Assembly (NCBI GenBank): GCA_001584585.1
Contig: LSYV01000011.1
Location: 2,459,129-2,523,128 of the forward strand
Source: Gonium pectorale
Lineage: Eukaryota; Chlorophyta; Chlorophyceae; Chlamydomonadales; Volvocaceae
Reading direction: 5' to 3'
DNA length: 64,000 bases
Shown one piece after another: positions 36,901 through 59,182 of this stretch (within the stretch, counting starts at the first letter, position 1; each line of letters begins with the position of its first letter). The position numbers were made by a program, and so were the translations under genes. A model generated the notes under the pieces. That model made no database searches. It was not told where the DNA came from and saw nothing but the letters and a program-made list of their open reading frames with translations.

Positions 36901-37445
36901 GGATGTGGCAAGGGCCGCCTGATTGGACGTGCCTAGCTTTCAGGAATTGTGACGTATGCCATAAAGTAAGAAAAAAGGGACAGGGCGGGCGACGGAGACG
37001 GCAGGTGGGGCCCCATGGCGGAGGACCATGTGCACTCATCGGCCTCACCGGTTTGCCGTTTCCTTGGCCACAGTGAGGGCAATAGAATTTGCCGTTGAGG
37101 AATGCTAGGGTTAGGGAGGGGTCACACCAGGCAGGCAGGTCAGACGGACATGCACTTGGGAGCACACTTGTGACTTGCGGGTGCGTTACATCTCCAACCA
37201 TAAGTCGTTCTCTTATTGTATAGCTTCTAGCGCTTGAAAAACGGGGGCAGGGATTGATGACTGTCACTAGGTAAACCCGCGCCAGCCAGGAAACCCAGGC
37301 TCCGTAGATGTGCGGCCGCTGTAAGTAATATCCTACCTGCATAGCTGCGGGCAGCAGGCACCTGCATGTATCCGTGGCCAAAGACCTTGGTGGCGAAGCA
37401 AGAAAGCGCAACGAGCGCAGCATAATAATAGAGTCTAAAGTTCAT
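33977..37445 (-). CDS. Secreted lytic polysaccharide monooxygenase, AA15-like, with Ser-Pro linker and three Cys-rich modules (copy B)
   Basis: Tandem paralogue of 27941-31441. Exons 5' to 3': 37445-37337, 37104-37049, 36871-36845, 36602-36372, 36282-36188, 35727-35588, 35210-34759, 34592-34434, 34207-33977; 499 codons. Seven of nine exons have the same length as in copy A (56, 27, 231, 95, 140, 159, 231 bases). The signal peptide differs (MNFRLYYYAALVALSCFATK) but cleavage again exposes an N-terminal His, HGYMQVPAARSY. The second copper His lies in LSTNHGGRMAMRL, and the 27-base exon PDVCGNPFQ is identical in protein. Exons 4, 6 and 9 are nearly identical to copy A, while the linker and the N-terminus have diverged, suggesting recent duplication or gene conversion of the middle exons. 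Same module order and the same uncertainty about substrate. Confidence 0.85.
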
Positions 37446-38822: not shown

Positions 38823-41800
38823 TCACCCAAGCTCCGCTGATGCGCTTCCCTGCGCACCGCGGCCCCTGCTCCGCCGGGCCGAGGCTTCGCGCCCGCCCAG
38901 GGCCACCACCCCCACCGACATGGCAGAGCTCCCAAGAGCCCCTCTGACCGGCGACCCCGCAGCGCCTTCGCGCGACCGCGCGGCCCGCTGCTCCAGTCGC
39001 GCCCAGGCGCCTGCGGGGCGGCCCGCCGCGGGTAGTGAACCCCTCGCCGAAGGGCTGGAGTGCAGATGTAGCGACGGCACCAATGGCCCATGACCGCTGC
39101 CGCCTGATGAGCGACCTGCGTCCGCTGACCAAGCCGCCGCCCCATTAGCCGCATGGCCGCTGCTGCCGTGGCCCAGACCAGGGGCATTCCAACTGGCGGC
39201 TACACCGGACCGGACGCCACGGGCCGCATCGTGCCGCGCCTCGGCGGTACTGTCGCCACGCCCGCTGCCTGCTGCGCCGCTGCCTCCGCCTGCTGGCCAC
39301 GCTGGCGACGCTGGCGACGGCTCCCACGAGGGCAGCTGTCGAATGGGGTGACTGCTATGCACCCTGCCGCTGCCGTAGAGCCAGTGGCCCGCAGCGCCCG
39401 GCGCGGCCCCCTCCAGCGACGGTGCCTCTGCAGACCCCGCCGGCTGCTGCAGCGGCGAAGGATGACCCCGCTGGCGTTGCCCCGAGGGAGCGGCGGCCAG
39501 CCCCGAGGTGAGGCTTGCTACAGTGCTGACCAGCTCAGCGTTGGCGGCCTGCATCTGCTGCACCAGCGTCGCAAGCTGCTGCGCCGACGCCTCAGCCACG
39601 GCCAGCCTTTGAGAGAGCTGCGGCAGGGTGGCACACGCGGCGCAGTGGCAGGGAAGGGGCACCGGCTGGGCAAATGGTTTTATCATAATGATGTGCAGCG
39701 CATAAGCCTGCAGGTCCTTTCCTGACTGGTTGTTATGCCCGAGAAGAAGCGGCAACGAAAGGGCGGGTGGCGGCTGCAGAAGGACAAAAGAAGGCAGGTT
39801 CGGCGGTATGGCATGGTACTGATGGTTTTAATGTGAATGTCGGGTAGCATGCTCTATGAAGATGTCGAGATCGATGCAATCCTAGCCCGGCGTCGATGCA
39901 ATCCTAGCCCGGCGTCGATGCAATCCTAGCCCGGCGTCGATGCAATCCTAGCCCGGCGTCGATGCAATCCTAGCCCGGCGTCGATGCAATCCTAGCTGTG
40001 ACCTGTGACCTCTATCCTTGCGGTCCGTAATCTGCCCGACGTCGACTAACTGCGCCAATGAACGCTGCGACCCCCGAACCCCTGCCCACCGCCCGTAGCC
40101 TGGCCCCACACCTGTCTGGCCAGCGCCAGCTCCGTCAGCGCGCCCGACTCCGCAGCTGCCCCACCGTGCGCCAGCGCGGCGGCCACCCTCTGCTCCACCG
40201 TAGCCTCCAACCGCGCCTCCAACCGCGCCTCCAGGGCGGATAGCTCCGCACGCACGGCACGAACCACCTGGTCCCGCACGCTCCCCCGGCCAGGTTCCCG
40301 CGCCCCCTGCAGCTGCCGCGTGCCCATCGCCGCCTCTGCGCCGCCGCTGGGGGGCTCACTGGCACCGGCGGGGCTCTGCTGCTGTTGCTGCTGCTGCTGC
40401 TGCTCCTGCTGCTGGTGGTGTAGGGTCGGGTGCTGCTGCTGCTGCACATCTTGTCCGTCGGGAAACTGAGGCGGTTGCGACGGTTGAGGCGGCATCACCA
40501 TTGGCCAGCCGTACGGGCCAAAGGGCCACATGCCCGAGCCCATCCAGCTGCCCGCGGGGTGCTGTCCACCGCCGGGCTGGCTCCCCGCAGGCGGCCATGC
40601 GGCCAGCGCTGGCAGAGGGCCACCATCCCAGGCTAGCAGGCCCAGGGCGCCCATGCTAGCAGGGTCTACGCTGCCTGCGGCGTGCCATGCGCCGTGCGGA
40701 GGAGTTTGTGGGCCCCCTCCTCCTCCATTTCCACCTCCAAGGGAATGGGGCATGGCGGCCGTGAGTGCCGGCAGTAACCACTGCGGCTGTGGCTGCTGCG
40801 TCAGCGGTGCTGGCGACGGCATGGCGTGCGGCGGACCTGGTGGCGGGAGGGGGCCCTGCGCCGTGCTGTGTGGGGCTGCTGGGCCGGCGGGGCTGGGAGG
40901 TCCGAGCTGCAACTTGATCTTGCTCAGGAGCACCTCCACGAAGGACTGAGTGCGATGGTCGGGACACCGGATGCATGCAAAGGTGTGAGGCAAAACCAAA
41001 ATGTAAAGCACGTAAGTGCGCGATTTGTCGGGGAAACGAGGACACGCAGGAGCGACACAGGGGAGAGCGCGACGGTTTGCGCACGTCACCGTGACTTGTG
41101 TCATCGTAACTTTCCTATGCTTGCCTATGAAAAGACCCTGCGCGAACCCGGGGGCCTGCCCACCCAGCGTGCACGAGTGCATGTCCTACGAACTGTACTG
41201 GACCCGTACCGCAGCACCACCGTACCGCATAGTATTCGTCGCTGTGCTGCACGGACTTGCGCTCGAAGACCTTCTGGGCGTCGGCCGGCAGCGTGCGCAG
41301 CAGCTCGTACGGCGGAAATTCGCACACCTTGTTCCCTTTGGCGTCGCGCCACCTGCACGACAGAGCCAGAGCCCACGGAAGGGGCCGTGAGGTGTAAGTG
41401 GCCGGCGGGCCGTGAAGGGTAAGTGCGGCTTTGTTGCGGTGCACGGCGGGGCTGGCCCGGTCCCGCAGACACCTGGTCTTGCACGCAGCCATACGAATCG
41501 CGCCGGCGGCCCGTGCCTGGCATCCACGATCTACCATGACCAGGAAGGGGTCCACAGCGGAACCCAATCAGCGAGCAAGAAGGTGCCGTGAACGGAGGGC
41601 GTGCGTAGGGGTGCGCATACGGGCACAACACCCAACACCGTCCTCCGAGGTGGCCAATTCGGCCAAATGATGGATAGAGGCAACGAGCCCCTGATGCAGC
41701 CTCCCCCCCTCACCACACTTCAACACACACACGCATACAAGACGCACCTGGATCCCTCCTTCACTACCAGCACTATGTTGACGCCCGCCTGCGCCGCCGC

Positions 41801-44800
41801 CTGCAGCTCCCGGCGGCACCACTCGCTCTCAAACACATGGTCCGTCAGGATAAACACGAAGTTGGTGCAGCGGGCCACGATGTCATCCAGCCGCGACAGC
41901 TCCTCCCGGTACTCGAAGTCAAGGAAGGTGCTGATGCCGCGCGTCACCAGCAGGTTGTACAGCGCGCGCGCAAAGTCCTTGGCGTCGGTGCGCTTGTGGG
42001 ACAGGAACACGTCAAAGGCCGAGGCCGCTGCCGCCGCGGTCGCTGGCGACCCGCTGCCCGCCTGCGGCGGCTGCAGCGGCGTCGAAGTCCCGGCCGTGCC
42101 CTCGCCACTGCCAGCTGCGGACTGCAGGGCCGGCCGCGTTGAGCGGTCGGCAGCACTCTGCGCCGCCTCCTCGGACAGCCCACCGAGCTGCAGCAGCAGC
42201 GCCCTAGCGGTGTCCAGCACCTGTGCCGGGTGCGGATCTGCCGCCAACTGGGCGGCCTCCAGCAGCGCCCGCACCGCCTCCACCACGCCGGCAGAGAGCA
42301 AGGTAGCCTAGCCAGGGTGGGGGCGTGGTCGGGTGTTCAGAGGGCGGCGAAAAGAAAAATGGGTGAAGCGGTGGGTGCGGTGCGGGGTCAGGGCCCCTCT
42401 GCGTGCAGACGGCCAGGTAGCCCACCACTAAAGCTCAACGCAGGTTTGCCACCAACAATGCGCATTGATTTGCTTGCTTGTCTGCCTAGCTACGCTCTAC
42501 CTAGCCCAAGACCGAGCCCCCATCCCCGCACCGTAAGGCCCGGCCGGCACTCGCAGCCTCACGCAACCCCGCCCCGCCCTACCTGCAGCTCCCCCACCGC
42601 CGCCATGTTGAGCAGCGCGGCGCAGCACCGCAGCACCACCACGGCGTCGCTGCACATGGACTTGCTCCGGAGCACGCCCAGCAGCAGCGGCAGCAGCCCC
42701 GCCGCAGCCAGCCCGCGCGCCGCGTCCTCGCTGCCGCCCGCTAGCGCCGCGGCCGCGTGCAGCACCTCGTCCAGCTGCAGACCCAACGCGCCATCCTCGC
42801 GCCGGACGGCGCTCTCCGCCAAGCGAACCACGATGCGCGCGGCACTGTGGCGCGACAGCAGCCGCTGCACCACCGCGCCCTCCGGCCCGCCGTCCGAGCC
42901 GCAGACGTGGGCCAGCACCAGCAGCGCCCGCACTCGCGTGGCGGCAGGCAGGCCGGGGCCGTCCAGCAGGGCCTCCAGGGCGCCCAGCACGCCGGCGTCC
43001 TTGAGCGCGAGCGCCAGGGAGTCCTGCTGCGCGAGGTACAGCAGCGTGGCGGTGTGGGCGGGCTGCTGCGGGGCGTGGCGTGCCATGGCCGTCAGCGCGG
43101 GCAGCAGTAGCTGCGTGGCACGCAGCGCCTCGCGGTTATCGCGCTCCGCCGCGATCCTCTGGACGAGCTCGCAGGCCGCCTCGTGCAGCTGCACCGCGGC
43201 CGCGGCCGTCCGCGGATTGGCGGCCGGCGAGCCGCTCGTGGCCGCCCCCGCAGCGGCGGGCAGGCCGGGTGCCGCCGGTGCGGCGGTGGTGGCGGCGGCG
43301 GTGGCCGCCGTGGCGCCGGCGGGCGCGGCCTCGGCTACTGTGGACAGCAGCTCCAGAGCGGCGGGGCAGCCGCTGGTCTCCACCGCGAGGCGCACCAGGG
43401 CCGTCAGGGCGCCCGAGGAGACGGCGGCTGCAATGGCGCGCTTAGCGGTGGGGCGTGACGCCAGGAGGCCTCCCAGGAAGGCCAGGTGCGCGGACATGGC
43501 GGCTCCAGCACTGGCTTTGGGAGAGGCCATGTAGGCTGCGGCTTGTGAGAGGAAGCCCTTGGTCACCTGCCACCCACGAAAGAAGGCCCGGGGCGTGTGG
43601 AGGTGGGGATGGGCGGGATGCACACGGGCGAGGGAAAACTCTTGGGGGGTATGAGAGCAGGAGGGGGTGGGAGCTACAGCAGCCGTGGACGCGACGACGG
43701 AAGCCATCCACCATCCGCCGTCGGTTCGGGGCTGTACTGGTCGGTTCGGGGCTGAAGGGGATTACCATGCGGGGTGGTCGTGTGGTGCCTCCCGGGGCGG
43801 CCGCCGGGTAGGAGACGGCCAGCAGCCAGCCAACATAGCACGTGCGGTGAGCATGGTCATGATCGGGGCTAGCGGCAGGCGCTGCCCGCGAGGCAGCCCG
43901 CCGGATGCACCACACACACGCGCGCGCACACACACACAGGTGGCGAGCTGACGAGAGACGCGATGGCAGCAGCCCAGGCGGCCCGGAAGCCAGACACCCA
44001 GCCGGCGAGCACAACCCCACCGGGACATCACGCACCCGCGGGACGGCAGCAGCAGGGTGCCGGCACGCCGGGAGAGGCGGCCCCCACTGCTGCGCCCGCG
44101 GGACGGCAGAAGCAGAGCGCCGAAACTCCGGGAGTCGTGACCCCCGCCGCCGCGCCCGCGGAACGGCCGCAGCAGGGCGCCGGCACGTCGGGATTGCCGG
44201 CCCCCGCCGCCGCGCCCGCGGAACGGCCGCAGCAGGCGGCCGGCACGTCGGGAATGGCGGCCCCCGCCGCCGCGCCCGCGGAACGGCCGCAGGAGGGCGT
44301 GGAAACGGTGCAGCAGGTCGCTGGCGGGCACCAGCCGGAGACGGAAGTAGCTGGGCAGCAGGCTCAGATAAGGGCGCTTCCAGCTGACCCTAGGCCCGCG
44401 AGACGGCTTGCCAGCCGGTGCAGCCCTCTCCCAGACGACGACCCGGGGGACAACCTGGCAGCTAACGCAGCCCCGGAGGCAGGAGGGAACCAGGAGCAGG
44501 CAGCAGGGCGATGGCACCCAGCATAGCCAGGACAGCGGGGCGGCCGATGTAGAGGCGCAGACCCAGCGGGCCACGCCCGTGAGGCGCGAGAGCCCCACCC
44601 GGTCTGACAGCCGGGGCCGCCCCCGATCGCCGGAGGCGGCGAGCCCCACCGACGCCCGACCCCGCAAGCGGAGTCAGTCGGCCCCCAGGGTGGAGCTGAC
44701 GGACGAGCAGGTGGCTGAGCTTCTGCCAGTGTACATGAGCCAGTACGCAAACAGCAGCAGCGGCTGGAGAAGGGTAGCAGGGGAGACAGACCGGGAGTAC

Positions 44801-47800
44801 GTGGCGCGCACGCACATCAGGAGGCAGAACATGGACGTGGCCCGGCCGCCTCGGCCGCCAGCCGGCGGGCCAGGGCAGAGGCCCGGAAAGCGGAGGAACA
44901 GCAGCAGCCGAAGCGGGGTCGCAGCGGTGCACGGTCGGCCCTCGGCAGCCGCAGCACCACCCCGGGCACCTCCCGCTCCCGCTCCCATGCGCAGCAGGGC
45001 TCCCACCCCGGACCCTGCGGCGAGCCAGGCAGCCCCGAGACTGCAGCTCCTGCTCTCACAAAACAGCGACGGCGGCCACGACGGCCCCTCAGTCCCGCCC
45101 CAGGAGCCCGCGGCCAATGGGCCGCCGGCGGCGCAGCCATGATGGCCCAAGGGACTCATGGCGGTCCGGCTGCGCAGGCCCGGCCGCTGAGAGTGGCCAC
45201 CCACAACCTGGGGGGGCCTCAGGGTTCAAGAAGGGCGCGCCGCTGCGCGCCTAGAGGCCGCAGTCAGGTCCTGGGCAGAGCTTAAGCTCGATGTGGTATG
45301 TCTCCAAGAGACTCACCATATCAACGCCGAGGACCAGGCTCTACTGCAACAGGCGCTCAACGGCGCCTGTGAACGTCGCCACCTCCCTGGGTGGATAATA
45401 GCAGCCCACTCCTGGTCCAGCGTGGGACCTTGCACGGCGGGCTTTGCCATCCTCATTCGCTCCGGAGTCGTTCCGGCGTCCAACATCCAGCCCATCGCAC
45501 ATTCCAGCAATGTCCCAGCAGGCTGGCTTACGGCCTGCCGACTGCAGTGGGGCGGGCACCAGCTGCAGATCTGCTGCGTATACTTCCCGCAAGCAGGGCG
45601 ACAGGACGCCACACAGCTACGGAAAGACATCTGCGCCAAATGCCTTGCCCCAGCCGCTGCTCAGAGCGCAGCCGATGGGACAGTCCTGCTTTGGGCAGGG
45701 GACTTAATTTTGTCGAGAACCCGGCCCTCGACTGGTCCAGCGCTGGGGTGGGGCGGCCTGGCAATGCCACCACAGCGGCGGACCTCAAAGCCGCTGCAGC
45801 TCCCGCCGAGATGGTGGACAGCTTCCGCGCCCTCCACCCCTCCCGCCGTGACTATACCCATCTGTACCGCGCCCCCAATAATGGAGGCTCCCGCATCGAC
45901 AGGATCTACCTGTCCGGCGCCGCCTCGCCGTACCTCGCCCGGGCCCACATCCATGTGGCGTCACCCTCGGACCACCGCCTCGCAGTCCTCCACCTAGCCC
46001 CCGTCCCCCAGCCGCCACGCCGCCGCGTGCCCCGCCGCGTCCGCCTGAGCTTCATGGCGCACTCGGAGCTCAAGCAGTCGATAGGTGTGTGGCTTGACCA
46101 GCAGGTTGCCACAGCACCGATTGGCTATGATCACCCGGCAGAGACCATCCTGGCCTGGTGGCTGGGCTTCAAGCGGCGGCTGACCGCCAACATCAAACGA
46201 CTGAACCATGAGGCGGAGGCCCGGCGCCGCCGCCCCAGCGCCACGGTACAGCAGCTGCAAACCGCGGCGCAGGAGGCGGCAGCGGCACTGGATGCGGCAC
46301 CGCACGACCTGGGGCGCCTGACGGCGGCGGTGGAGGCCCAGGTGGCAGTCTCTGGGGCCATGCGGGCTGACGCTAAGTCCAACGTTCTAGCCGCCCGCCG
46401 CTCCAGGATCAGTGAGGGCGAGCGCCCGAGCAGGGGCCTCACGAACCTGGTGCACGAGGCCAACGGAGGCGGTGACGGCGGCGGACCCGCCCCAACGACG
46501 CTGAGGGACCCCACCTCCGGCCAACTGATCAGCGACCCCGCCAGGGTGCCGCAGATAATCGCCAACTACTGGCGCGATGTCAGCGCCCTGCCAACGGAGA
46601 CCGAGCTCCCTACGGCAACCAAGCAGGCCGCTCTGGCGGAGGTCATGGCGGCGCTGCGGGCCCATCCACTGCGCCTACCCGCAGATCCTGAGGGCGACCA
46701 GCTAGGCAGCCCGGAGGTATCTAGCGCTGAGGACATAAAGGCACTGCGCGCAACACCCCGTGGGAAGGCCCCCGGCTGGGATGGGCTGCCAGCAGATATC
46801 TACAAGGGTTTTACCAGACAGGTCAGCCCACTCCTAGCCGCCCTCTACACCGCCATTGGCGGATTTGGCACCAGCGGCAGCATGCCCCCGCAGTTCACTG
46901 ATGGCGTCATCAAGGTGCTGTACAAGAAGGGCGACCCTACTGAGCCCGGAAACTACCGCCCCATCACCCTCCTGAACACCGACTACCGCATCCTCGCCAA
47001 AGCCCTGGCAACACGGCTGGGACCCGCCCTCAGCGCCGCTATCTCCGCCGAGCAAACAGCGTTCCTGCCGGGCCGCCTCATTGGCTCAAACATCTTTGCC
47101 TTGCGGCACCTACCACACCTTCACCGGCGCCAGGGCCGCTCGGCCATCGTCGCGTTCCTGGACTTTGCAAAAGCGTACGACATGGTCCACCGCGACTTTC
47201 TGCTGGCCGCCATGGAGGAGCTGGGCGCAACCGAACAGCTCCGCAAGTGGGTCGCCACCCTACTCGCGAACACACGCGCGCAGGCGCTGGTGGGCGGCCA
47301 CCTCTCAACCTCCGTCAGCATGGCCGCAGGAGTACGCCAGGGCTGCCCGCTGGCCCCGCTGCTGTACCTCTTCGTGGCACAGGCACTACTGTGGTGGCTG
47401 CAGAAGAAGGGTATCGGCATCCGCCTTGACCCCACAAATCCAGAGTGTACGACGGCAGTACAGTTTGCAGACGACGGCCAGGTGCTACTGGACGGCGAGA
47501 GTGCGGTTCCGGCTTTTCTGGCGGCTATGCAGACGTTTGCGGCGGCCTCAGGACAACGCCTTAACTGCACGAAAGTGGAACTCCTCAAGGTGGGGCAGCA
47601 CCGCCCTCCACCGCGCCGCCAGCACCCCCAGCACCGGCAGCGCCGGCCGCAGAGCCCCAGGCGGAGCCGCCACCACCACCGCTGCCAGCCCAGGTGCACC
47701 CCCTCCAGCCGCCGCCCGCTCCCCTCATTGCGGGGCTGCGAGTGCTCCCCGGAGCGACGGCATTGGGCATCCGCTTCTCCAACGGCGACCAGCCAGATGC

Positions 47801-50800
47801 CGAAGCCCCCGATACCCTGACCCAGGCCAGACGACGCATGCACCGACTGGCAGCGCTCCCGCTGTCGGTCTTTGGCCGCTGCGCCGAAGTGGGGTCTTAT
47901 GCGTTGCATGCTCCCAATGACGTATCATTGGGAGCATGGTGGCCTGCCCTCCGCTGGCATGACGGCGCAGCTAGAAGGTTGGGCCGCCGGAGTGGCTGAC
48001 AGGCGTGTCAGCCCGCTGGCTCCAATGCACCGCCTCACAGGCATCCCACGGCAGCTGCTGTGCGGAAGCCCGTCAGTCAGTGGCTTTGGACTACTGCCGC
48101 TTGGGGCTCACACCAGAGCTCGAGAGGCAGTCTGGGCAGCACGCCTGGCCTGATCGGCGGGGCCACCCGTCGCAACCCGCCACTCCCACCCATGGGCAAG
48201 GATTACCGGCCTCTGCCTGCGCCAATACCACCCACTGCTCAGCCCGAGCTCCGTGCTGACGGCAGCCGCGCCCGCGCCGGAATTACCCGGCCCGCACGGG
48301 ACCACTCTGCCCTCGGACATCGGGCGCATAGTGGGCGCGCTGGGACATTTGCCGCCCGTGCAAGACGTTGGGAAGGAGCCGCTACCAGCACCAGGGCCCT
48401 GGTGCTACAACGTCCCCCTATGTGGCAACCCGCTGCTCCCAAATACCGCAGCCGCAGCACCGGAGCAGGAAGCGGCGTCGGACAGTGACACTGAAACGGG
48501 GGAGGGGGACGCACACGCAGCAGCCGAGGGCGCGGGAGATCCGGACTTCGAGTGGGACGACACCGCACCCGGGAGCGCGTACGCGACACCACGCCCCGGC
48601 TTTGACCGCCGCCACGCCAGGCTGGCCACCTGCGCAGCGCTGCGCACGGTGGGCGACGCAGTGCGGCTAGGCAGGACAGCGGCGACCGCCCCTCACGGTG
48701 CCGCCCATAGGGGCGAATGGGTGCAGCTGCAGCTGGCGCCCACAGACNNNNNNNNNNNNNNNNNNNNNNNNNNNNNNNNNNNNNNNNNNNNNNNNNNNNN
48801 NNNNNNNNNNNNNNNNNNNNNNNNNNNNNNNNNNNNNNNNNNNNNNNNNNNNNNNNNNNNNNNNNNNNNNNNNNNNNNNNNNNNNNNNNNNNNNNNNNNN
48901 NNNNNNNNNNNNNNNNNNNNNNNNNNNNNNNNNNNNNNNNNNNNNNNNNNNNNNNNNNNNNNNNNNNNNNNNNNNNNNNNNNNNNNNNNNNNNNNNNNNN
49001 NNNNNNNNNNNNNNNNNNNNNNNNNNNNNNNNNNNNNNNNNNNNNNNNNNNGAGCATACCGCCACGCATACATAACACACCTGAAGAGCTTGTACCGCAC
49101 AGGCCGCGCCGCTCCCTAGCATGGTGCGCAGCACGGCGCCCGCGGAGCGGCAAAGCGCGGCGCTGAGCGGCCGCGTTGCGCCCAGTGCGCCCAGCGCCGC
49201 CAGCCGCTCCAATAGGCCCGCCCTCTGCATGGCCGCCAGCGCGTCCCCGTTGTACGACCACACGTTGGCAGCGCCCTCCACCCGGAACGCCGCCAGGCAG
49301 CGCAGGCCCTCTAGGTAGCCCGCGGCGGCTGCCTGGTCCTCCCCAGGCCCGACCCGGGAGACGCAGGCCGCGACGACGCGCGGCTCCGCGCCGCGCAGCT
49401 CTTCCAGCGAACGACGCGCCTGCTCCTTTTCTTTATCCTGCGGTTGCTGCCACGGCGATGCAGCCAACACCTCAACCGCGCCGATGGCCCCAGCCCCAGC
49501 TGCCGCCGCCGGCCCCAGCAGCTGCTGCAGCGCCACCAACATGAAGCTCATCCGTTCCAACAAGACCGCAGCCACGCGGCTGCCGCCCTGCCCCCCGAGG
49601 CAGGCTTCCAGAGCCGCCGGCATGCCTCCCTCGCGCAGCGCCAGGTGCAGAAGCCTCGCGTCCACCAGCCGGCGCTCGTAAAAGAAGCCCCGGGCCGAGG
49701 TCAGAGCGCTCATGACCGCATGCATCGCGTCCGGCGCCAGCGCCATGTTGTGGCCGCTGCGGAGCAGCTCCAGCAGCGAGCGAGTCACGGACCTCAGAGC
49801 GTCGGCGGCGGCGGCCGCCGCGGCCGGCGGGCAGGCCCCGGGCGCGGCACCGCCGCCGCCCGCCGCCGCGCCTGATGTCCCCTCGGCTGCTGACGCGGCA
49901 TCATCGCCGTCGGCATCCTGTTCCGCCGTTGCGGGCCAGGCCAGGCGGTGCAACAGGGAGACTATGTCGACGCTGACGCCGGCCCGGAGGCCGCGCTTGG
50001 AGGCAGCGAGGCCAGCGAGGCGGGGAATCTGGCCCGACTCGTAAAGCCAAAGCACGACCGCGGGGTTGAAGACCACGCTTCCCGCCACAAGGCCGCAGGC
50101 GAGCCATCGGAGCATCTGGAGCGCGCGCTGAGCAACCTCCTTGTTGGAGCTCCAGACGGCCTGGCAGAGCGGCGGCAGGCAGGCCAGCGCCGCTGCTTGT
50201 TTGGCTGGATGGTCCGAGGGCAGGTCCGGCATCTGGGGACGTGGACGCGGCGGGGAGGGTGTCGCGGCGGGCAGGAGGTCGAAGTCAACTTTTGGGGAGG
50301 GGCGGCGATGGGGATCGGTTGATCGGATGACAAGTGCGTGACTGAGTTTAGGGGGCACAGGCTCTAGCCTTGCGTGGGCCCGACAGGTTGAGTTCGGGCG
50401 CAGAATGCGGCGGAGACCAGATGGGAGACAGCGAAGGTGGGGAGCTGACCGTGAGTTGATGGGACGTCGCAAGGGGCCCGATGAGGGTTTCGGAGCCGCT
50501 CCGGTCGCCGGTTGGCCTCGCCTGCTCCGTTTCGAGCTGCATGACGGCCGCCAGTGTGCCGCACAGCGCCTGGCACATGGGCAAGCTGTCGGGGAAGGCG
50601 GCCAGTGCGGCTGCCATGCGCGGCAGGCAACCAGCGCCCAGCAGCCAGCGCAGCATGTCTGGGGATGGCCTGCGCGGCCGCCGGGAGACCAGGGTGGTGG
50701 GGACTGGACTGAGCAGTGGGCACTGTGGAGTGCAGCGTGCGGCCAATCAAGCTAGTCACAGGAGGATAAGGCCCAGATACGGCCGGCGCGCTGTACGCTG

Positions 50801-53800
50801 TTCCTGGCTCAGTCATACACTGGCCCGCGCGTCGATCGGATGGCTTGGGCTCGCCAGGGCGCTGGGGCGAGAGAGGTGGAGTGCGGGGAGCGGGGCCATG
50901 CAGCGACCGAGCAGGGACGCCCCCTGCCTCCCCCCATCTCCTCGTTCGTCAAAGACAAGTCTGGACAAAAGTAGTGGTTGGTGGCCTTTAGGGTTGCGGT
51001 ACGGGTGGCAACGGACGGCCTCGCCCTCCTGCCGCCACACCGTACAGCTGCGGACCTCACGGCACTTCAGGCTCACCTAAACTTCCCAGCGACATAGCTC
51101 CTGCGCGTTGTGGAGGAGGGGCCAACGGCAGGGCAGCCGGGCTCTCAAAGGCAGTCCAGCGCATGGACAGGAGGCGGTGGCACTGGGCGGAGCGCACAGC
51201 TAGCTCGTCCAGGCGATGTTCCCACACACCCACATGCAGTGTGGCCACACACACCAGCCCAGCTCACCAACCCAGCCCGTCACCCCAGAGTTGCTATGCT
51301 AGCTATATCTTGGACCTGTTTTCTGCACTCCGTCACGCATACATAACTCACACACACAGCTCAGCTCAGCTCAGCTCAGGTATCCAGCCCAACCCAGCCC
51401 AACCCAGCCCAGCATTCCAGGGTTAATTTCTTGGGGGCTTCATTTATTTAGTCGGGCGGAGGGTTCTTAGGCTGCCGGCTGCTTTGCTGCCTCGTTTTAG
51501 ACCTTCTGTAAGCATTCCGCCACGCATACGTAACACACACACATAGCAGGTAGATACGCCTCCCCAATACGCGGCACTCCGCCCGCCCTCCCTTACCGTG
51601 TGAAGGATACGATGCCGTCCACCGCCCTTTCCAGCACCATCTGGTCGCTGCTCGACAGGAGCGAGTCCAGCAGCTGCAGCATGCGGGAGCGCAGCGCCAG
51701 CAGCCGCGTCCGTAGCTCTTCGGCATCCCCCACAGGAAGCTCGACCTGCGGCTGTGGTATCTGCTGCTGGTGCTGTGGGTGCGGCTGCGGTAGCCCCGGC
51801 AGCTGCTCTGCCATGCCTCCGTGCGCTCCGCCTTCGCCGTGCTCGTCACCGCTGACGCCACCGCCGCTTTCTGCGTAATGCAATTCGTCGCTCACGGCCT
51901 CTGGCGTCAGCTCCTCCAGAGCGTACTTGATGAGGTAGCTGCGTAGGACGGGTTACCGATCCATGGTTAACAAGGGCGTCTCCCTGTCAGGCGCACGATG
52001 AGCCGACCCGTGATGAATGAAAGGGCGCTGAGCAGCGGTGATCCGCCCATGAGCCCACCCGCCTGCCTGGACGGACACGGCCCCACACGGCGACGCCATG
52101 CGCATTCGTGGCGTTGGGCGTTGCGCAAGGCACACATGCGGCCGTCCCGCGGTGCGCCTTCGCCCTCGCCGCAGTCGATTTTGCTCCTCGTCCGCCGATC
52201 CGCAGTCCGCGCTTGCCGACGCGCAGCCGGTCCCGCGCAGAGGGCTGCATGCGGCCCACTGCCACATGCATCGCCCGATGCCGCGCCGCCCGATGCCACA
52301 CCGCCCGATGCCACATCGCCCAGCAGCTAGGTGCACCTGCCTCAGGTTCTTGACGGCGGAGTCATCCAGCGGCAGGCGCTCCAGGCCCATCTCCAGCGTG
52401 CCCGCCGCGGCCGCCCCGTGCAGCAACCGCAGGTCCACCTGGTGGCCGCCCGAGCCCTCGCTGCGCACCAGACCGTCCAGCAGCGCCACCACATAGCCCG
52501 CCCTCTCGCTGCCGGCGGCGTCGGGGGACGACAGTTTGGCGTGCAGGAGCCGCAACAGTGAGGCACACGCACCGTGCAGCTGCTCCCGCAGCGGGGCGTC
52601 GGGGTTGGTGGCCTGCATGTGTGTGTGGGGGGGGGGGACGATAGGGTTTGGAAGGCATTCAAAGGGGCCGTGGGTGGGGGTGGAGCAGGACGGGTAAGCA
52701 GCAAGGGTCACGTTGGGACCCCTTGAAGAGGGTAGCATTCAGCCTACGGAGGCCCCTGGAGCAAGTGGGGAGGGGTGGCAGCTGCGGGGGTTCTACTAGG
52801 TACGCGGGAGGGTTCAACAGTAAGATGAGGGAGTCTACATGAACAGGCAAAGGCAGGGTGCGAGGAGAGATTGATGAAAAAAGAGAACCAGAAACGGGGG
52901 AGGCAGCCTCTATGGACATACACACCCGAGGGTGTGATGTTTCCAGCAGGGCGCCGAGTACAGGCCATGGCGGGCGAGGTATACGAGCGGACGGGCCCCA
53001 TGCCCATGCGCCATCGAGCGCATGTCCCGGACACCATCACCGCACCACGCCGCCCCGAATGAAGTATGGAATCTTGCCTGGAGGATCCCGCTGAGCAACT
53101 TCACCATTCGGTGCGACGCCATGCTGATGGTGCGGGAGAGGTGGTAGTCGGCGCCTGCGACGGCCACGGCGGCGGGCAAGGCGCCGGCCCCCGCCAGGCG
53201 GCGCAGCAGCTGCGTGTCGCATGTCCGCGCCTGCTTTCCCGGCAGCAGCAGCGAGTGCAGCGCGTCCAGGGTGTTGTGCACCACGCCGGGGGCCTGCCGT
53301 ACCCCCAGGCCGGCGACCAGGTGCCCGATGAGGTGATCCGAGGCGCGCCAGCCCTGGGGGCAATGGGGGCGGCGCGCTGGGATATGAGGGCGCTAGGCAA
53401 TGGCGAGGTAACGACAGGTCAGTAAGGATGGCCTCCCTTCATCCCGCGATAGCAGTTGGCGTAAGGGGGCCACAAACTGACTACCCTAGCAGGCGCGCGT
53501 TCGGCGGCGCATGCACAGCAACGAACCGCAGCCATACCACCCACCCACCCGCTTGCTCTCACGAGGCGCCTCCTCCCTGCCTGCTGCGGCCACCGCGCCG
53601 ATGCCACGCACCAGTCAAGCTATGACCCCACGGCGGCGCCCATCGTACCTGCACTTTGCTGGCGCATGACTTGACCAGCTCAATCGCCGCCTTGAACACC
53701 AGGCCGTAGTGGCGCGCCGGCCGCGGCCCGCACAGCGCCTCCACCATTCGCAGCGCGCCCAGCCGCTCCAGCTCGCGCACCACCTCGGGGTCCGCCACCA

Positions 53801-56800
53801 GCGCTCCATCCCTGCCGCCCGTCAGCATCAGCTTGTCCACCGCGCCCAGCGCTCCCACCGTGGCGTCGGGCCTCACCAGGCAGCCCGCCTCCGCCGCGGC
53901 CGAGTCCAGTACCAGCCGCTCCTGCAGAGCCGCCAACAAGTGCAGCTTGAGCTTCACCGTGGCGGGGTGTATACCGGTACTGGTGCTGCTCCTCGAGGCC
54001 GGTGCAGCCGCCGGTGACGCTGCCATTGCCATTGCCATGGCTGTCGCTGCTGTGCGGAGCACCTCACTAGTACCGTCGGCCCCCGCGGCCAAGGGCGTAG
54101 CTTTAGGGGCCCCGTTGGGCACGGCCCCGGCAGCGCGAGCCCCGGCTGCGGCGGCTCTGCCGCCCAGCGCCCCGGCTGCGAGCTGCTTACCCCCGGCTGC
54201 TGCCGGAACCGCAGCGCGCACCAGCGCCGCCACCCCCGCTACGCAACTGGCGTCTGCCAGCACCTCGGGCCAGCGCATCAGCAGCTCCACCAGCACCTCC
54301 AACAGGGGCACCGCACCGGCTCCGCCGGTTGCCCCAGCACTCCTCGCCGCTGCAGCGACAGCGGCAGAGGCTCTGCGGGCCCCGGCTGCTGCTCCTCCTG
54401 CTGCCACTTCGTCCCGCGGCACCTCGCCGGCCGGGCGCTCCACCCGCCAAAGCAGCATCTCCGCGCCCATCTCGCCCCGGCCCCCGCCCCCGCCCCGGCT
54501 AGCAAGTGAGCTCAGCGCCGCCAGCGCGCGAGTCACAGGCAACGGGTCGAGGGCGGCTTGCATCGCCACCGCCAGCGCCGCCAGCGCCGCCTGTAGTCTC
54601 CCGCGCAGCGCCGTGTACGTCGCCCCCGGGGGCCGCGGCCCCTCCCTCTGCCCCTGGAGCACCTCCCTCTGCCCCTGGAGCACCTGCTGCCCCTCCTGTG
54701 CGGGGTTACCGCCCGAACCCTCACCTTCCCCCCCCTTGGTGCTTTTGTCAATGCCTGCCGGCGCCGGCGCCGTCGGCGGCGGCTGTGGCACGGGATTGGC
54801 CGAGGGGGCGTAGTCGAGTAGCCGCCGCAGAAGTACGGCGGCCGCGTCGATCGCTGTGTCGTACTGACAGCGCATGGCTAGCCCCAGCTGCCTGCTCGCC
54901 TGCAGCGCCGCCAGCGGCCGCCGCAGGCACTGCTCCGCGACGCACCAGATCGCCTCCGGCCTCAGCAGCGCGGGCGCCAGGTCTGCGTCGTAAATGATTG
55001 TACGGGTGTCCTTGCCGAGCGGGCAGGCCAGCACCGCGGCGGTCCTGAGCACCGCTGAGCTGACGGCGTCGCTCGGGTCCGCGCGCAGCACCTGCAGCAG
55101 CTGCGTCAACAGCTGCTCCATCGGGGCTGCAGCGAGCTGTTGCGGGGGGGGGGAGAGTGCGGTGTCAGTACGAGCAGGGCGTCCGGGGAATGTGAATGAA
55201 TCCAGTAAATGGGCCGCTAGGGACGGAGGGGCAGCGGAAACGGCAGCGAGCACCGGGAGGTGGAGCGGCGGTGGTGAGGAGGGGCCAGAGTCTACTGTCC
55301 CGTCTCCATCACATGCCCGTCTCAAGCCCAGCGTCCCAGGAGGCCCCCCTTGTCCTTTCCCCGCCCTGCTTACCCGCTTGCTGCCCCACAGCTCCTCCAG
55401 CAGCGCCGTCACCGCCAGCGTGCACTCCGCATGGCGTGGCGCGACGGCCACCAGCCCCACCAGCCCCTCCATCGCGCCTGCCTGGCCCACCAGCGCCCCT
55501 GCTGCCGCCTCCCCGAGGCACGGGCTGCGCACCAGCATGCCCAGACACTTGACCGCCTGCGCCCTGCGGTCCAGCTGAGCGTGGTTGCGCCAACTGGCCA
55601 ACCCGGCGCCGACGGCGGCGGCATCCGACGCCGTGCCCCCACCTCCTTCCTGGCCGTCACGGCCTTGCGGCTGCCGGTGTGGCACGGGTGCGCCTCCTGC
55701 GGCCGTGATGCACGTCGTCGCCAGTCCTACCAGCGCCGAAACCACGGCGCAAAGGCTGGCGTGCACGGCTGCCGCCGCCTCCTCCACCTCCGCCACACCG
55801 CTGTCCGCCAGGCTGCCCTGGTCCACGTACGCCATGAGCAGGTGGGCCGCGGCGTGCAGGCCCAGGGGCGGCGCCCAGTGCTGCCCGGCCGACGCGTCGG
55901 TCCAGCCGGCGCCCAGCCGAACCGCCAGCGCGCTCACCAGCCCCGCCCGGGCCAGCTCCGCAGCGAAGCGGGGCTCCAGGGCCGCCCCGGCGGAAAGGCC
56001 GGAGAGGTGATACAGGGCCACCGCAGCTCCGCATGCGCGCACGGAGCCATCCGAGTCGTCTTCACTGTTGTCCGCGGAGGCGGTGGCGCGGTCCGCGCCA
56101 TCCCGCGAGCTCCGCGTGGCCGTGGGACCCGCGCCGGCTCTAAACCCGGTGCCCGCGCTGCTTCCGGGGCCAGAGTTAACGCACAAGCCAGCGGCGCCTC
56201 TCACTTGGCCGCCGCTGGCCGCCGCCGCCGCCGGCAGATGGATCATCCCCACCAGCGCTGCGCCCACTTGCAACCGGCATTGGGCCGCGGCGGCGGCGAC
56301 GGACGGCTTGGGGTGCCGGGCGGCGGTGCCGATGAGCCGGCAGGCAGTGCCGGCGGCGCCCCTGCCCCGGCGCGCGAGGCACCGTAGCCAGTCCGGGCGC
56401 GTGGCGGCCTCCGCCAGGCACTGCAGCACCCGCGGCTGGATCAGCTCCTGCACAGACTGCGTGTAGCGCACGCGGCCCTGCTTGGTTGGGCAGGCGAGGG
56501 CCTCCACGAGCAGCAGCGTGGACCGCGCCGCGGCATCGCCCCTCGACTGCTCATGCGGATGTTGCAACTGCTGCGGCTGCGGCTCCTGGGTCCGCCCAAG
56601 CAGCGCCTCCAGCGCCAGTGTCATTGCGACTCCCGGCGGGTCAACCTGCAGCGGCCGATGGTAAGGCGCGGCAAGGGAGCGTGTTAGGTGAAGGGCCGAG
56701 CCGGGAACAATCTAGTACGACGGCTACGCGGCCGACCCCCCTCCCCCGTGGCGGGAAGCCAGGAGCCTTCCCCCACCTGGAGCTCCGGGGACCACTCAAC

Positions 56801-59182
56801 TAGCTGTGAGACCGCGGAGTCCAAGCCTGCGCAGGTGCCGCAGGCGAGCCGCGGGAGCGCCGCCAGCAGCCGGTGCGCCCAGCCGTCCCGCCAGAGCATA
56901 CGCAGGAAGCCCGCGTCCGCGCACTCCGCCTTGCCCCGGCACACAGCGCGCATGAGGGACTGAAGCACTCTGGCGCACCGCGACACCAGCGTGGCATTTG
57001 ATTGCGGGTCCTCCACGTACGACACGAGCGCCTCCAGCGCCGTGCGGAACAGGCCGCGCAGATGCGGGGCTGCCGCACCGATGTCGATGCTTCTGCCGCC
57101 GCCGCCACCGGAGGCGCCAGCCACTCCATCAGCCGCTGCTAGTGCCAGGGGAAGTGGCGGCGGCGGTGCGGCCAGCAATCCAGGGTCCTCATCGAGTTGG
57201 GCTGTGGCGCAGCGCAGCAGCTTTGCAACTGCCGTTATGTGCGGAGCCGCCCTTGCTGTGGCGGGATCGCACAGGGCTGCTATCAGCTGCTCCATGAGGC
57301 CGGCATTGACCTGGCAGGGCAGGCGGTAGGGCGGCAGCGGCGGGGCGCTAGTAGGGCTCGGCATATGTGACCCAACGCAAAGCAAGCACAGCCGGTGTCG
57401 GCCCCAACGCGACACTGAACAACGCAACGCAACTCACAAATACCCCGTTCAACTATCCCCGCTTGTCCCAGCAAGGTGCTGGGCAAGCCAATACCGGCCC
57501 CGCACGCCATCAAGCTACACATTCTCTATCGCAGGGGCAAAAAGATCAACGCTTGAGAACGCGGTGCAACGCACCAAGATGTGCATCGCCATCCAGTTGG
57601 GCAGGAAGTGGTATTGCGTTGATCGGGGGCCGTCCAGCGCGAGGTGCCTGGCCACCACGGCGGCCTTGCCCAGGCGCAGGGCCCGCAGCCTCGCACCCGC
57701 CGGCTCGGAGGCAGCACACGCACCGGCTCCATTGCCGTCACCGCCCGCCATCGCGCCGGCGCCACCACTGGCCGCTGCCGGCACCCGCAGCGCGTCGGCC
57801 CACGCCCGCAACACCACCTCGCAGGGCGCCGGCAGCGGCAGGTGATGCACAGCCTCAGTATCATAGGCCGACGCGCAGCCGCTCCCTCCAGTTCCTACGG
57901 CGACGGTGGTGCCACTGTCGCCACTCCGGCTGCTCCCGTGCGGCTGTGGCATGGGGGGAGTCTGCTGCAGCTTCCGCTTCTGCTGTGCCTGTAGCAACAG
58001 CGGAAACTCCCGGGCAGCGGCCGCCACAGCCTCAGGGGCGTCCAGCAGGCGGTTGGAGTTGGCCAGCAGCTCACCCATCAGGGTGGTGACCTGCGCTAGG
58101 GTGTCAACAGCAGCGGCACTGCCTTCTTCATCGCCACTGCCGCTGCCACTGGTGCCGCTTCTGCTGCCGCCGCTGCTGCCAGCAGCGCAAGCCGAGAAGA
58201 TGCCACTTGAGCCCGCCTGCGCTGCCCCTAACGACGCCAGGCAAAGGTGCGGCCGCAGATGGCATAGCAGCAGGACGAGCTCCTGCTCCGTGTCTCGCAC
58301 AGTGGACTGCTTGTCGACAAGCACAAAAATGGGGCTGCCGCCGCCGAAGGTGCCACCACCACCAGCACCGCTGCCGCTGCTAGCGGCCGCCATTGATACG
58401 GCGTCGTGCGGCAGCTCTTGCTGGTGAGGCTGCTGCACTACAGGGGACCGCAGGCGCCGAACCAGCAGAGGCGCAAGCTCGGGGCCGGCGACATGGTGGA
58501 GGTGGCTGTTGAAGCTGGGTATCTCGCCGGCTGTGCGGCGCAAGAAGCAGCAGGCCGGGCCTAGCCAGTCGTCCAGGTCCTCACCGTATGCCCCCGCTTG
58601 CCCAGCTGCCGTCGCTGTTGGTACCGAGGCACGGGTGTCCGTGCCGAGTACAGCCAACAGGCTGCCAAGAAGCTGCTTGGGCATAAGGCTCTCCCTCACG
58701 ACCTGGACCCATGACGGAAGCGCCTCGCGCCCTGGTGCAGCGGGGAAGAAAGCCTCGCAGCAGAGGGCCAGCGCGGCTGCTCTTATCCCTGTGGACTCAT
58801 CAGGCTGCACGCTCGTGGCCATGATGCGGTGCATGTGGTCCAGAAGCACGCCATGCGTCTCACTGGTAAACATACAGTTGGCCGCTCGGATAAGATGCAG
58901 GCATGCGAGGCGTACGGGCTCAGGTGTGGCGTCCGGACCCTCCGACACAAGCTCTGCGAGCTGGCCAAGCGGAGCGGGAGTGCCGCGGACCAGCATGGCC
59001 ATGGCTTGCACGGGGTTAGCATCCGGCTTGAAAAGTGTGGTGTGTGCATCCTGCAGCACTTTGTATACATCGTCTCTAATTGCATGTTGGTCCCTGGAAG
59101 AGCTCAGAGCGTCCTGTATCCAGCCTAGTAGGCTAGCTAAATTCGCTTTCATAGCGCCACATTCTGAGTCGACATGCTGCAC
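38823..59182 (-). CDS. Giant ARM/HEAT-repeat protein with a TIR domain and coiled-coil tail (about 3,500 codons)
   Basis: Exons 5' to 3': 59182-57521, 57310-56777, 56645-55374, 55136-53649, 53356-53078 (GC donor), 52612-~52340, 51938-51597, a candidate ending at 51077, 50658-50450, 50232-49081, 43566-42583, 42307-41748, 41352-41226, 40945-40112, 39617-38823. The first ~2,800 residues are Ala/Leu-rich helical repeats of ARM/HEAT type (ALTALVRLAVETSGCPAALE, LPPLCQAVWSSNKEVAQRAL). A TIR domain starts at 42016 with FDVFLSHKRTD. It continues through ISTFLDFEYREEL and ESEWCRREL; the Glu of the last motif (41809-41807) sits where NAD+-cleaving TIRs have their catalytic residue. The tail is Pro/Gly-rich, has poly-Gln and two predicted coiled coils (ELSALEARLEARLE; AQQLATLVQQMQAANAEL). 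Weak points: the 52340/51938 and 51597/51077 joins, and an intron holding a retroelement and the gap. Two genes remain possible, split near 50232 where an ATG follows the acceptor. Confidence 0.65.
39871..39996. repeat. 22-base minisatellite, about 5.7 copies
   Basis: Near-perfect head-to-tail copies of a 22-base unit containing gatgcaatcctagcccgg, located inside the last intron of the ARM-TIR gene (39618-40111). Confidence 0.95.
40375..40446. repeat. CTG/CAG trinucleotide tract coding poly-Gln
   Basis: Two ctg-rich runs, about 40375-40415 and 40431-40446, encode Gln-rich stretches in the minus-strand ARM-TIR tail, interrupted by a His/Gln segment. Such tracts are often length-variable. Confidence 0.85.
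43963..45142 (+). pseudogene. Retroelement ORF1-like region, frameshifted
   Basis: Two overlapping frames (43963-44526 and 44408-45142) together read as one Pro/Ala/Gln-rich protein, so a frameshift lies in 44408-44526. The second half is basic and includes RVELTDEQVAELLPVYMSQY. No zinc knuckle was seen. It precedes ORF2 by about 15 bases. Confidence 0.6.
44041..44290 (+). repeat. 60-base coding tandem repeat in retroelement ORF1
   Basis: Slightly more than four copies of a 60-base unit encode a 20-residue repeat of the form ERPQQGAGTSG followed by a Pro/Ala-rich segment ending AAAPA. Copies are 80-95 percent alike by eye. Confidence 0.95.
45160..48160 (+). pseudogene. Retroelement ORF2: AP-type endonuclease plus reverse transcriptase, frameshifted
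   Basis: The endonuclease reads in one frame from 45212 to about 45704, then the sequence continues in another frame (LNFVENPALDW onward) through the whole reverse transcriptase to about 47590. It then shifts again for the C-terminal part (GIRFS, FGRCAEVGSYALH) and once more near 47990 (SGFGLLPLGAHTRAREA). Catalytic motifs of both domains are intact within their segments. The FADD in place of the more common YADD box is acceptable in some LINE families. Confidence 0.8.
47907..47938. repeat. Perfect 14-base inverted repeat with a 4-base loop
   Basis: Arm catgctcccaatga, loop cgta, then the exact reverse complement of the arm. It lies in the C-terminal coding part of retroelement ORF2. Confidence 0.95.
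48748..49051. other. Assembly gap (N run)
   Basis: 304 unresolved bases lie between the 3' part of the retroelement and the splice donor of the ARM-TIR exon at 49081. The true length is unknown and the element's 3' end may be inside. Confidence 1.
49052..49080. repeat. Copy 1 of a repeated motif of about 29 bases
   Basis: Contains ccgccacgcatacataacac. On the minus strand it begins exactly at the exon donor (GTGTGTTATG). Related copies are at 51324-51352 and 51512-51542. Confidence 0.7.
51324..51352. repeat. Copy 2 of a repeated motif of about 29 bases
   Basis: Contains ccgtcacgcatacataactc; followed by CA repeats and an agctc pentamer run (51358-51379). Confidence 0.7.
51512..51542. repeat. 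Copy 3 of a repeated motif of about 29 bases
   Basis: Contains ccgccacgcatacgtaacac, followed by a CA run; lies in the intron just past the ARM-TIR exon ending at 51597. Confidence 0.7.

Follow-up and report, generated by a model that had tools for sequence, protein, structure and literature searches.

In a 64,000-nucleotide stretch of the Gonium pectorale (Chlamydomonadales) genome, hereafter the window (positions 2,459,129 to 2,523,128 of contig LSYV01000011.1, called C11 below; assembly of 128.9 Mb in 352 contigs), the minus strand encodes a protein in which armadillo (ARM) repeats stand directly before a TIR domain. Judging from sequence and predicted structure, we consider that the locus probably encodes a member of a conserved, uncharacterised family of green-algal ARM-TIR proteins, for which an auto-inhibited switch that cleaves nicotinamide adenine dinucleotide (NAD+) would be the most likely role. 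When joined, fifteen exons (E1 to E15) running from 59152 down to 38823 give a reading of 3563 residues whose single stop is terminal; some junctions were picked among alternatives so as to keep phase, and the final ones were set by hand. Two published models match the spliced piece at 100% identity, GPECTOR_10g1108 (1092 aa) and GPECTOR_10g1110 (1801 aa). The same domain order is known from SARM1, an animal enzyme that destroys NAD and thereby brings about the death of damaged nerve fibers. A preliminary description of the window had drawn this comparison for a giant protein; the order of ARM and TIR is borne out by sequence profiles, predicted structure and conservation in other algae, while the giant size is unproven and the TIR domain is not C-terminal.

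The ARM-TIR Core

E11 (42583-43566; residues 2449-2776 of the joined model) is an armadillo-repeat exon with an Ala-rich insert and an uncertain 5' boundary; against a family ARM profile from which the window had been excluded, the ARM of the joined reading scored 132 bits (E 2.5e-40). E12 (41748-42307) holds the last ARM helices, a linker and the first part of the TIR domain, which begins at 42016, the position given in the preliminary description, and is recognised by the TIR_2 (E 2e-12; 48.1 bits, cut-off 28) and TIR (E 2.9e-8; 34.2 bits, cut-off 21.3) profiles, both above threshold. The domain continues in E13 (41226-41352) as far as HSDEYYA, as judged from the family alignment, and ends in E14 (40112-40945), where the last TIR helix (to 40901) is followed by a Pro/Gln-rich linker and the start of a coiled-coil region (40234-40184). 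E15 (38823-39665; NCBI start ~48 bp later) carries coiled-coil heptads (39617-39510), a Gly/Ser/Arg-rich C-terminus and the stop codon. ARM thus lies N-terminal to TIR on in-phase exons of one protein, an order kept in the relatives. The last TIR helix, SFVEVLLSKI, corresponds to, e.g., AFVDNMLKKI of relatives; GPECTOR_10g1108 skips the first part of E14 and lacks this helix.

The TIR domain carries the FLSHKR, SxWCxxEL, and HSDEYY-like motifs of the chlorophyte ARM-TIR family. When a profile of 12 algal TIRs was compared with the PDB, the best match was SARM1 (E 1.6e-8, positions 2-140 of 144), and the alignment of plant TIRs was confined to roughly the first 80 positions. Both the Trp and the Glu of the algal WCxxE motif coincide in the SARM1 alignment with those of WVHKE, the Glu being the residue that we take to be E642; in the window its codon lies at 41809-41807. 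This glutamate is invariant in all 12 aligned algal TIRs, and WCxxE occurs in 30 of 33 retrieved proteins, the others being P0028 and P0029, which end before the motif, and P0031, which is without a TIR domain.

Some 540 residues follow the TIR domain in the joined model, long helices among them, so that it is not C-terminal as in SARM1; relatives with complete ends likewise carry long tails. By a simple in-house heptad score, combined with the helices of AlphaFold2 (AF2) models, the tail is predicted to form coiled coils: the window C-terminus scored 1.18, more than any of its 500 shuffles (at most 1.15), and 11 of 12 relatives, for which the score was used without shuffles, exceeded 1.0, the remaining one scoring 0. 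The AF2 model of GPECTOR_10g1108 has helices at 608-644 and 653-704. Beyond the coiled coil this published model continues as a Cys-rich protein, which begins with PDVCGNPFQ in the minus-strand frame 36737-37441 and has predicted local distance difference test (pLDDT) values mostly <50; the Cys-rich end (~36.7-37.4 kb) is probably a false fusion to a downstream gene. The analysis thus points to two faults in the public Gonium gene model, the missing TIR helix and this apparent fusion.

Relatives in Green Algae

A search with the ARM-TIR piece returned 29 proteins, and the 11 with a species name are all from green algae, namely Chlamydomonas reinhardtii, C. schloesseri, C. incerta, Tetrabaena socialis, Volvox reticuliferus (two), and Dunaliella (five). 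The chlorophyte proteins (C. reinhardtii CHLRE_06g278186, C. schloesseri HYH02_005818, C. incerta HXX76_008083, Tetrabaena TSOC_001876, and those of Dunaliella spp.) share with the window protein the order of ARM, TIR, and post-TIR helices, and their TIR domains are 57-70% identical to that of the window, but they are listed at 328-985 aa (some are fragments) and are without the long upstream half. The closest across the full TIR is TSOC_001876 (70% identity, listed length 904 aa).

A second Gonium gene of the ARM-TIR kind lies at C5:1.29 Mb (G000:C5:1287596-1294394; loci L016 and L017), and its N-terminal half is long. Its TIR domain forms a clade (support 99/100), here called type 2, with V. 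reticuliferus Vretimale_11344, Tetrabaena TSOC_002822, and C. incerta HXX76_009223, the last being a 2885-aa protein with an ARM-TIR core and a long N-terminal extension. A large ARM-TIR protein therefore exists independently of the joined reading of the window. The type-2 proteins have an ARM-TIR core like that of the window protein, but their TIR clade is separate and their N-terminal half shows no homology to E1-E10. The tree, which omits P0001, P0030, P0031, and sequences whose TIR was too short, is informative for the type-2 clade only, with P0019 and SARM1 on very long branches and a weak placement of the window. No giant TIR protein came out of a search at full length, a weak null since HXX76_009223 (2885 aa, TIR-bearing) escaped the same search; the later search that recovered it scored only the candidates with most shared words.

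The preliminary description knew of no characterised algal protein of this kind. We likewise found no characterised algal ARM-TIR protein in the literature searched, whose coverage leaves out many journals; the type itself, however, is already in databases, and a 2026 preprint notes, in one sentence, that a few SARM1-like TIR sequences come from green algae (PMC13142454). SARM1 is usually treated as an animal protein with a TIR domain of bacterial origin (PMC13142454), and a 2020 survey places seven chlorophyte TIRs within a mixed group (PMC7075850).

Comparison with SARM1 and Plant TIR Receptors

SARM1 and its Caenorhabditis elegans counterpart TIR-1 are the best Foldseek and TIR-profile matches of the window protein and its family, and in both an ARM domain precedes a TIR domain with a catalytic glutamate, as in the window. 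In SARM1, ARM is reported to pack on TIR and the SAM domains to form an octamer; deletion of ARM frees the NADase, and binding of nicotinamide mononucleotide (NMN) versus NAD+ to ARM sets its state (PMC7688312, PMC9780360); the allosteric pocket comprises W103, R110, E149, Q150, R157, H190, and K193 (PMC9780360), and the catalytic glutamate of the human enzyme is E642 (PMC7688312). SARM1 differs in having two SAM domains between ARM and TIR, where the window protein has no SAM match and the AF2 model leaves a spacer of only ~40 residues, mostly with pLDDT <50. It also differs in ending with its TIR domain, which in the window is followed by the helical tail, and it has no counterpart of the possible 2,450-residue N-terminal extension. 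We do not class the window protein as a member of SARM1, since the SAM and C-terminal-TIR features fail.

Several results weigh against a SARM1-like switch. SAM domains were not found with Pfam at E<=0.01 in eight proteins or at E<=0.1 in six. C. elegans tir-1 aligned with the 12-TIR profile over positions 2-88 only. Searched alone against the PDB, the window TIR exon ranked bacterial AbTIR first (6.4e-7), with other bacterial, plant, and SARM1 TIRs below it (SARM1 at 0.0025). The top NCBIfam matches, all sub-cut-off, were bacterial anti-phage TIR proteins. No SARM1 chain was among the 60 listed of the 126 matches of the combined ARM-TIR profile, and ARM and TIR may accordingly have been joined independently. 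The comparison of predicted structures, proposed in the preliminary description, did place SARM1 among the best Foldseek matches, but with low query-normalised template modeling (TM) scores of 0.13-0.18 and root-mean-square deviations (rmsd) of 20-29, indicating that ARM and TIR are placed in the model unlike those of SARM1. In VIA-align, other ARM proteins filled the 50 matches listed and SARM1 was not among them, an uninformative absence.

The plant TIR-NB-LRR receptors RPV1, RUN1, and Roq1 have the TIR fold and the glutamate region in common with the algal protein, but the alignment covers only the first half of the algal TIR, and no NB-ARC or LRR match was present in GPECTOR_10g1108 or GPECTOR_10g1110 (Pfam, E<=0.1).

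One Giant Protein or Two Genes

We put at near even the chance that a single protein comprises both the ARM-TIR core and the ~2,450 residues encoded upstream, which correspond roughly to GPECTOR_10g1110. The claim that the protein is several times larger than SARM1 is not sustained, hanging as it does on a single unproven splice between E10 and E11, across a long interspersed nuclear element (LINE) and an assembly gap, and with TSOC_001876 at 904 aa. The other arrangement, to which we give a little short of an even chance, is that of two adjacent genes with the LINE between them, the upstream one encoding a helical protein (GPECTOR_10g1110) and the other an ARM-TIR protein of ordinary size (the 5' part of GPECTOR_10g1108); E11-E15 alone encode ~1,115 residues. 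The published models divide at E10/E11, and TSOC_001876, closest across the full TIR, has a listed length of this order. The family ARM profile stops before E10 (E10 alone, -0.4 bits), and its candidate reach into E10 was rejected, the junction piece scoring a non-significant 1.7 bits and the joined reading (132.1 bits) gaining nothing over the unspliced sequence (136.3) or the best of 200 E10 shuffles (139.3). The E11 acceptor is weak, 44% of AGs scoring equally well. Nor, finally, was homology found between E1-E10 and the N-terminal portion of the large type-2 proteins: a resemblance of E1 to the type-2 N-terminus that was suggestive by eye gave a best piece of -3.0 bits, under the best of 200 shuffles, and the whole type-2 N-terminal profile found nothing in E1-E10 (best piece -1.2 bits).

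Against a division into two genes, the E10 donor at 49081 is strong (top 0.7% of GTs) and its phase matches E11. The 46 codons upstream of E11 show non-coding usage (-0.23 vs +0.33), and in the interval from E11 to 44036, the start of the LINE's repeat array, the automatic gene-finding runs predicted no exon. The annotated end of GPECTOR_10g1110 is built from sequence beyond the gap, within the LINE, and the sister type has a large N-terminal extension (C. incerta, 2885 aa). The short introns elsewhere in the joined model support a single giant protein: 13 of the 14 measure 131-496 bp, the remaining one (49080-43567) 5,514 bp.

A first automatic (Viterbi) run predicted too many introns. Runs under three intron penalties recovered most main exons, but the predicted gene either continued across antisense LINE sequence or was interrupted, within the LINE for two of the penalties and in the interval 51593-50656 for the remaining one. 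E11 was also given other starts, 43541 or 43510; for these reasons the runs do not decide the E10-E11 link. The preliminary description had suggested a search of the spliced protein with ARM, HEAT, and TIR profiles, which recognised the TIR domain and, through the family profile, ARM, whereas the upstream half had no Pfam match at E<=10 and no ARM/HEAT match in the PDB. The AF2 model of E10 is all helical at low confidence (pLDDT 42.6), and a search for E10 paralogs in the genome returned E10 itself only.

A Possible Mechanism

The layout, from the armadillo superhelix through a SARM1-type TIR with the NADase catalytic glutamate and the Pro/Gln-rich linker to long coiled-coil-like helices, would fit the following cycle. 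ARM may pack on TIR and keep it apart from neighboring TIRs; a stress or infection cue, possibly a changed level of NAD+ or NMN bound by ARM, would free it; the C-terminal helices would gather the TIRs, in place of the SAM octamer of SARM1; and the assembled TIRs would cleave NAD+, leading to a signal or to cell death. The algal proteins retain ARM, TIR, and the glutamate, have no SAM match, and possess additional post-TIR helices; an auto-inhibited TIR enzyme gathered by these helices is the simplest reading.

Among animal TIRs many serve as scaffolds, and those of plants produce signal nucleotides. The algal TIR could likewise be a scaffold or a maker of a small signal nucleotide instead of an NAD+-depleting executioner, an alternative we hold to be rather unlikely; likeness among TIRs leaves the biochemical function unfixed, according to PMC13142454, but the invariant glutamate and the profile nearest to SARM1 favor an enzyme, without fixing its product.

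More tentatively still than the auto-inhibited enzyme itself, we envisage a green-algal family of ARM-gated NADases, old or convergently assembled, that would be SARM1-like but oligomerize via post-TIR coiled coils instead of SAM, and whose members in certain lineages (Gonium 10g1110 + 10g1108, C. incerta HXX76_009223) would have acquired sensor scaffolds of great size at the N-terminus; such a family might serve as a tunable NAD+-collapse switch for cell death or antiviral defense in single-celled and colonial algae. A conserved family with a member in the genetically tractable C. reinhardtii opens two questions to direct test: did a TIR NADase come under the control of ARM on more than one occasion, and is NAD+ destruction the route by which algae carry out programmed cell death or antiviral suicide?

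The LINE and the Remaining Exons

A gene copy broken by the LINE and becoming a pseudogene is very improbable, for despite a big insertion and a gap within the putative gene the joined reading is open, the GC content at third codon positions is 0.72-0.90 in the six long exon stretches examined, and the conserved residues are retained in the ARM and TIR core. The LINE lies on the plus strand at 44031-48747 (RVT_1, E 3.6e-30), with an approximate 5' end, where a 60-bp tandem array occupies 44031-44299, and a 3' end lost in the gap; its endonuclease-like domain (E 0.0026) is below the cut-off. Copies elsewhere in the genome (C7, C70, C81, and other C11 sites) are 86-97% alike in long aligned pieces and stay alike ~1.4-1.6 kb past the gap start, so that the real gap (48748-49051, 304 N, true size may differ) may exceed 304 bases.

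The upstream exons, likewise on the minus strand, begin with E1 (57575-59152), with an ATG at 59152 and an NCBI start further in. E2 (56777-57310) and E5 (52337-52612) rest on the joined reading and the NCBI model together, and several in-frame pieces of the long E3 (53649-56645) are treated as introns by NCBI. E4 (53078-53353) has a GC donor at 53078 and an NCBI end 27 bp earlier, as E9 (50522-50658) has a GC donor and an NCBI end 24 bp earlier. The 5' end of E6 (51597-51925) is uncertain (51925 or 51938), and NCBI keeps its last part only. The 24-bp E7 (51077-51100) was placed by phase fit, and its residues SYVAGKF are present in GPECTOR_10g1110; the small E8 (50821-50861), tentative and placed by phase fit only, is not in that model. 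The helical E10 (49081-50232), whose link to E11 is unproven, is part of GPECTOR_10g1110 and has no Pfam match.

Other Observations

A bacterial source for the algal TIR was sought, and none of 13 pattern matches in genome contigs was confirmed. The ARM of a single relative had one PDB match only (E 0.34). The viral fold library gave no match to the ARM-TIR model at E<=0.001; the best, a weak one, was the TIR/WD40 protein A0A2P0VP16 of Tetraselmis virus 1 (BFVD, E 0.014), a virus that takes its name from a green alga. Further Gonium TIR_2 matches above the cut-off, without an ARM-TIR family match, lie at C4:1642458, C2:4444706, C14:500480, C99:304942, and C99:16510; the C14 locus and the two on C99 resemble one another closely over the stretch compared, and both C99 loci have a frame containing MGNAASKS. 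Within the gene, the intron before the last exon holds a perfect 22-bp tandem repeat in 5.7 copies (39871-39996). Minus-strand introns near 49060, 51530, and 51360 share short stretches similar by eye (gtgtgttatgtatgcgtggc and variants), which are perhaps the ends of a small mobile element.
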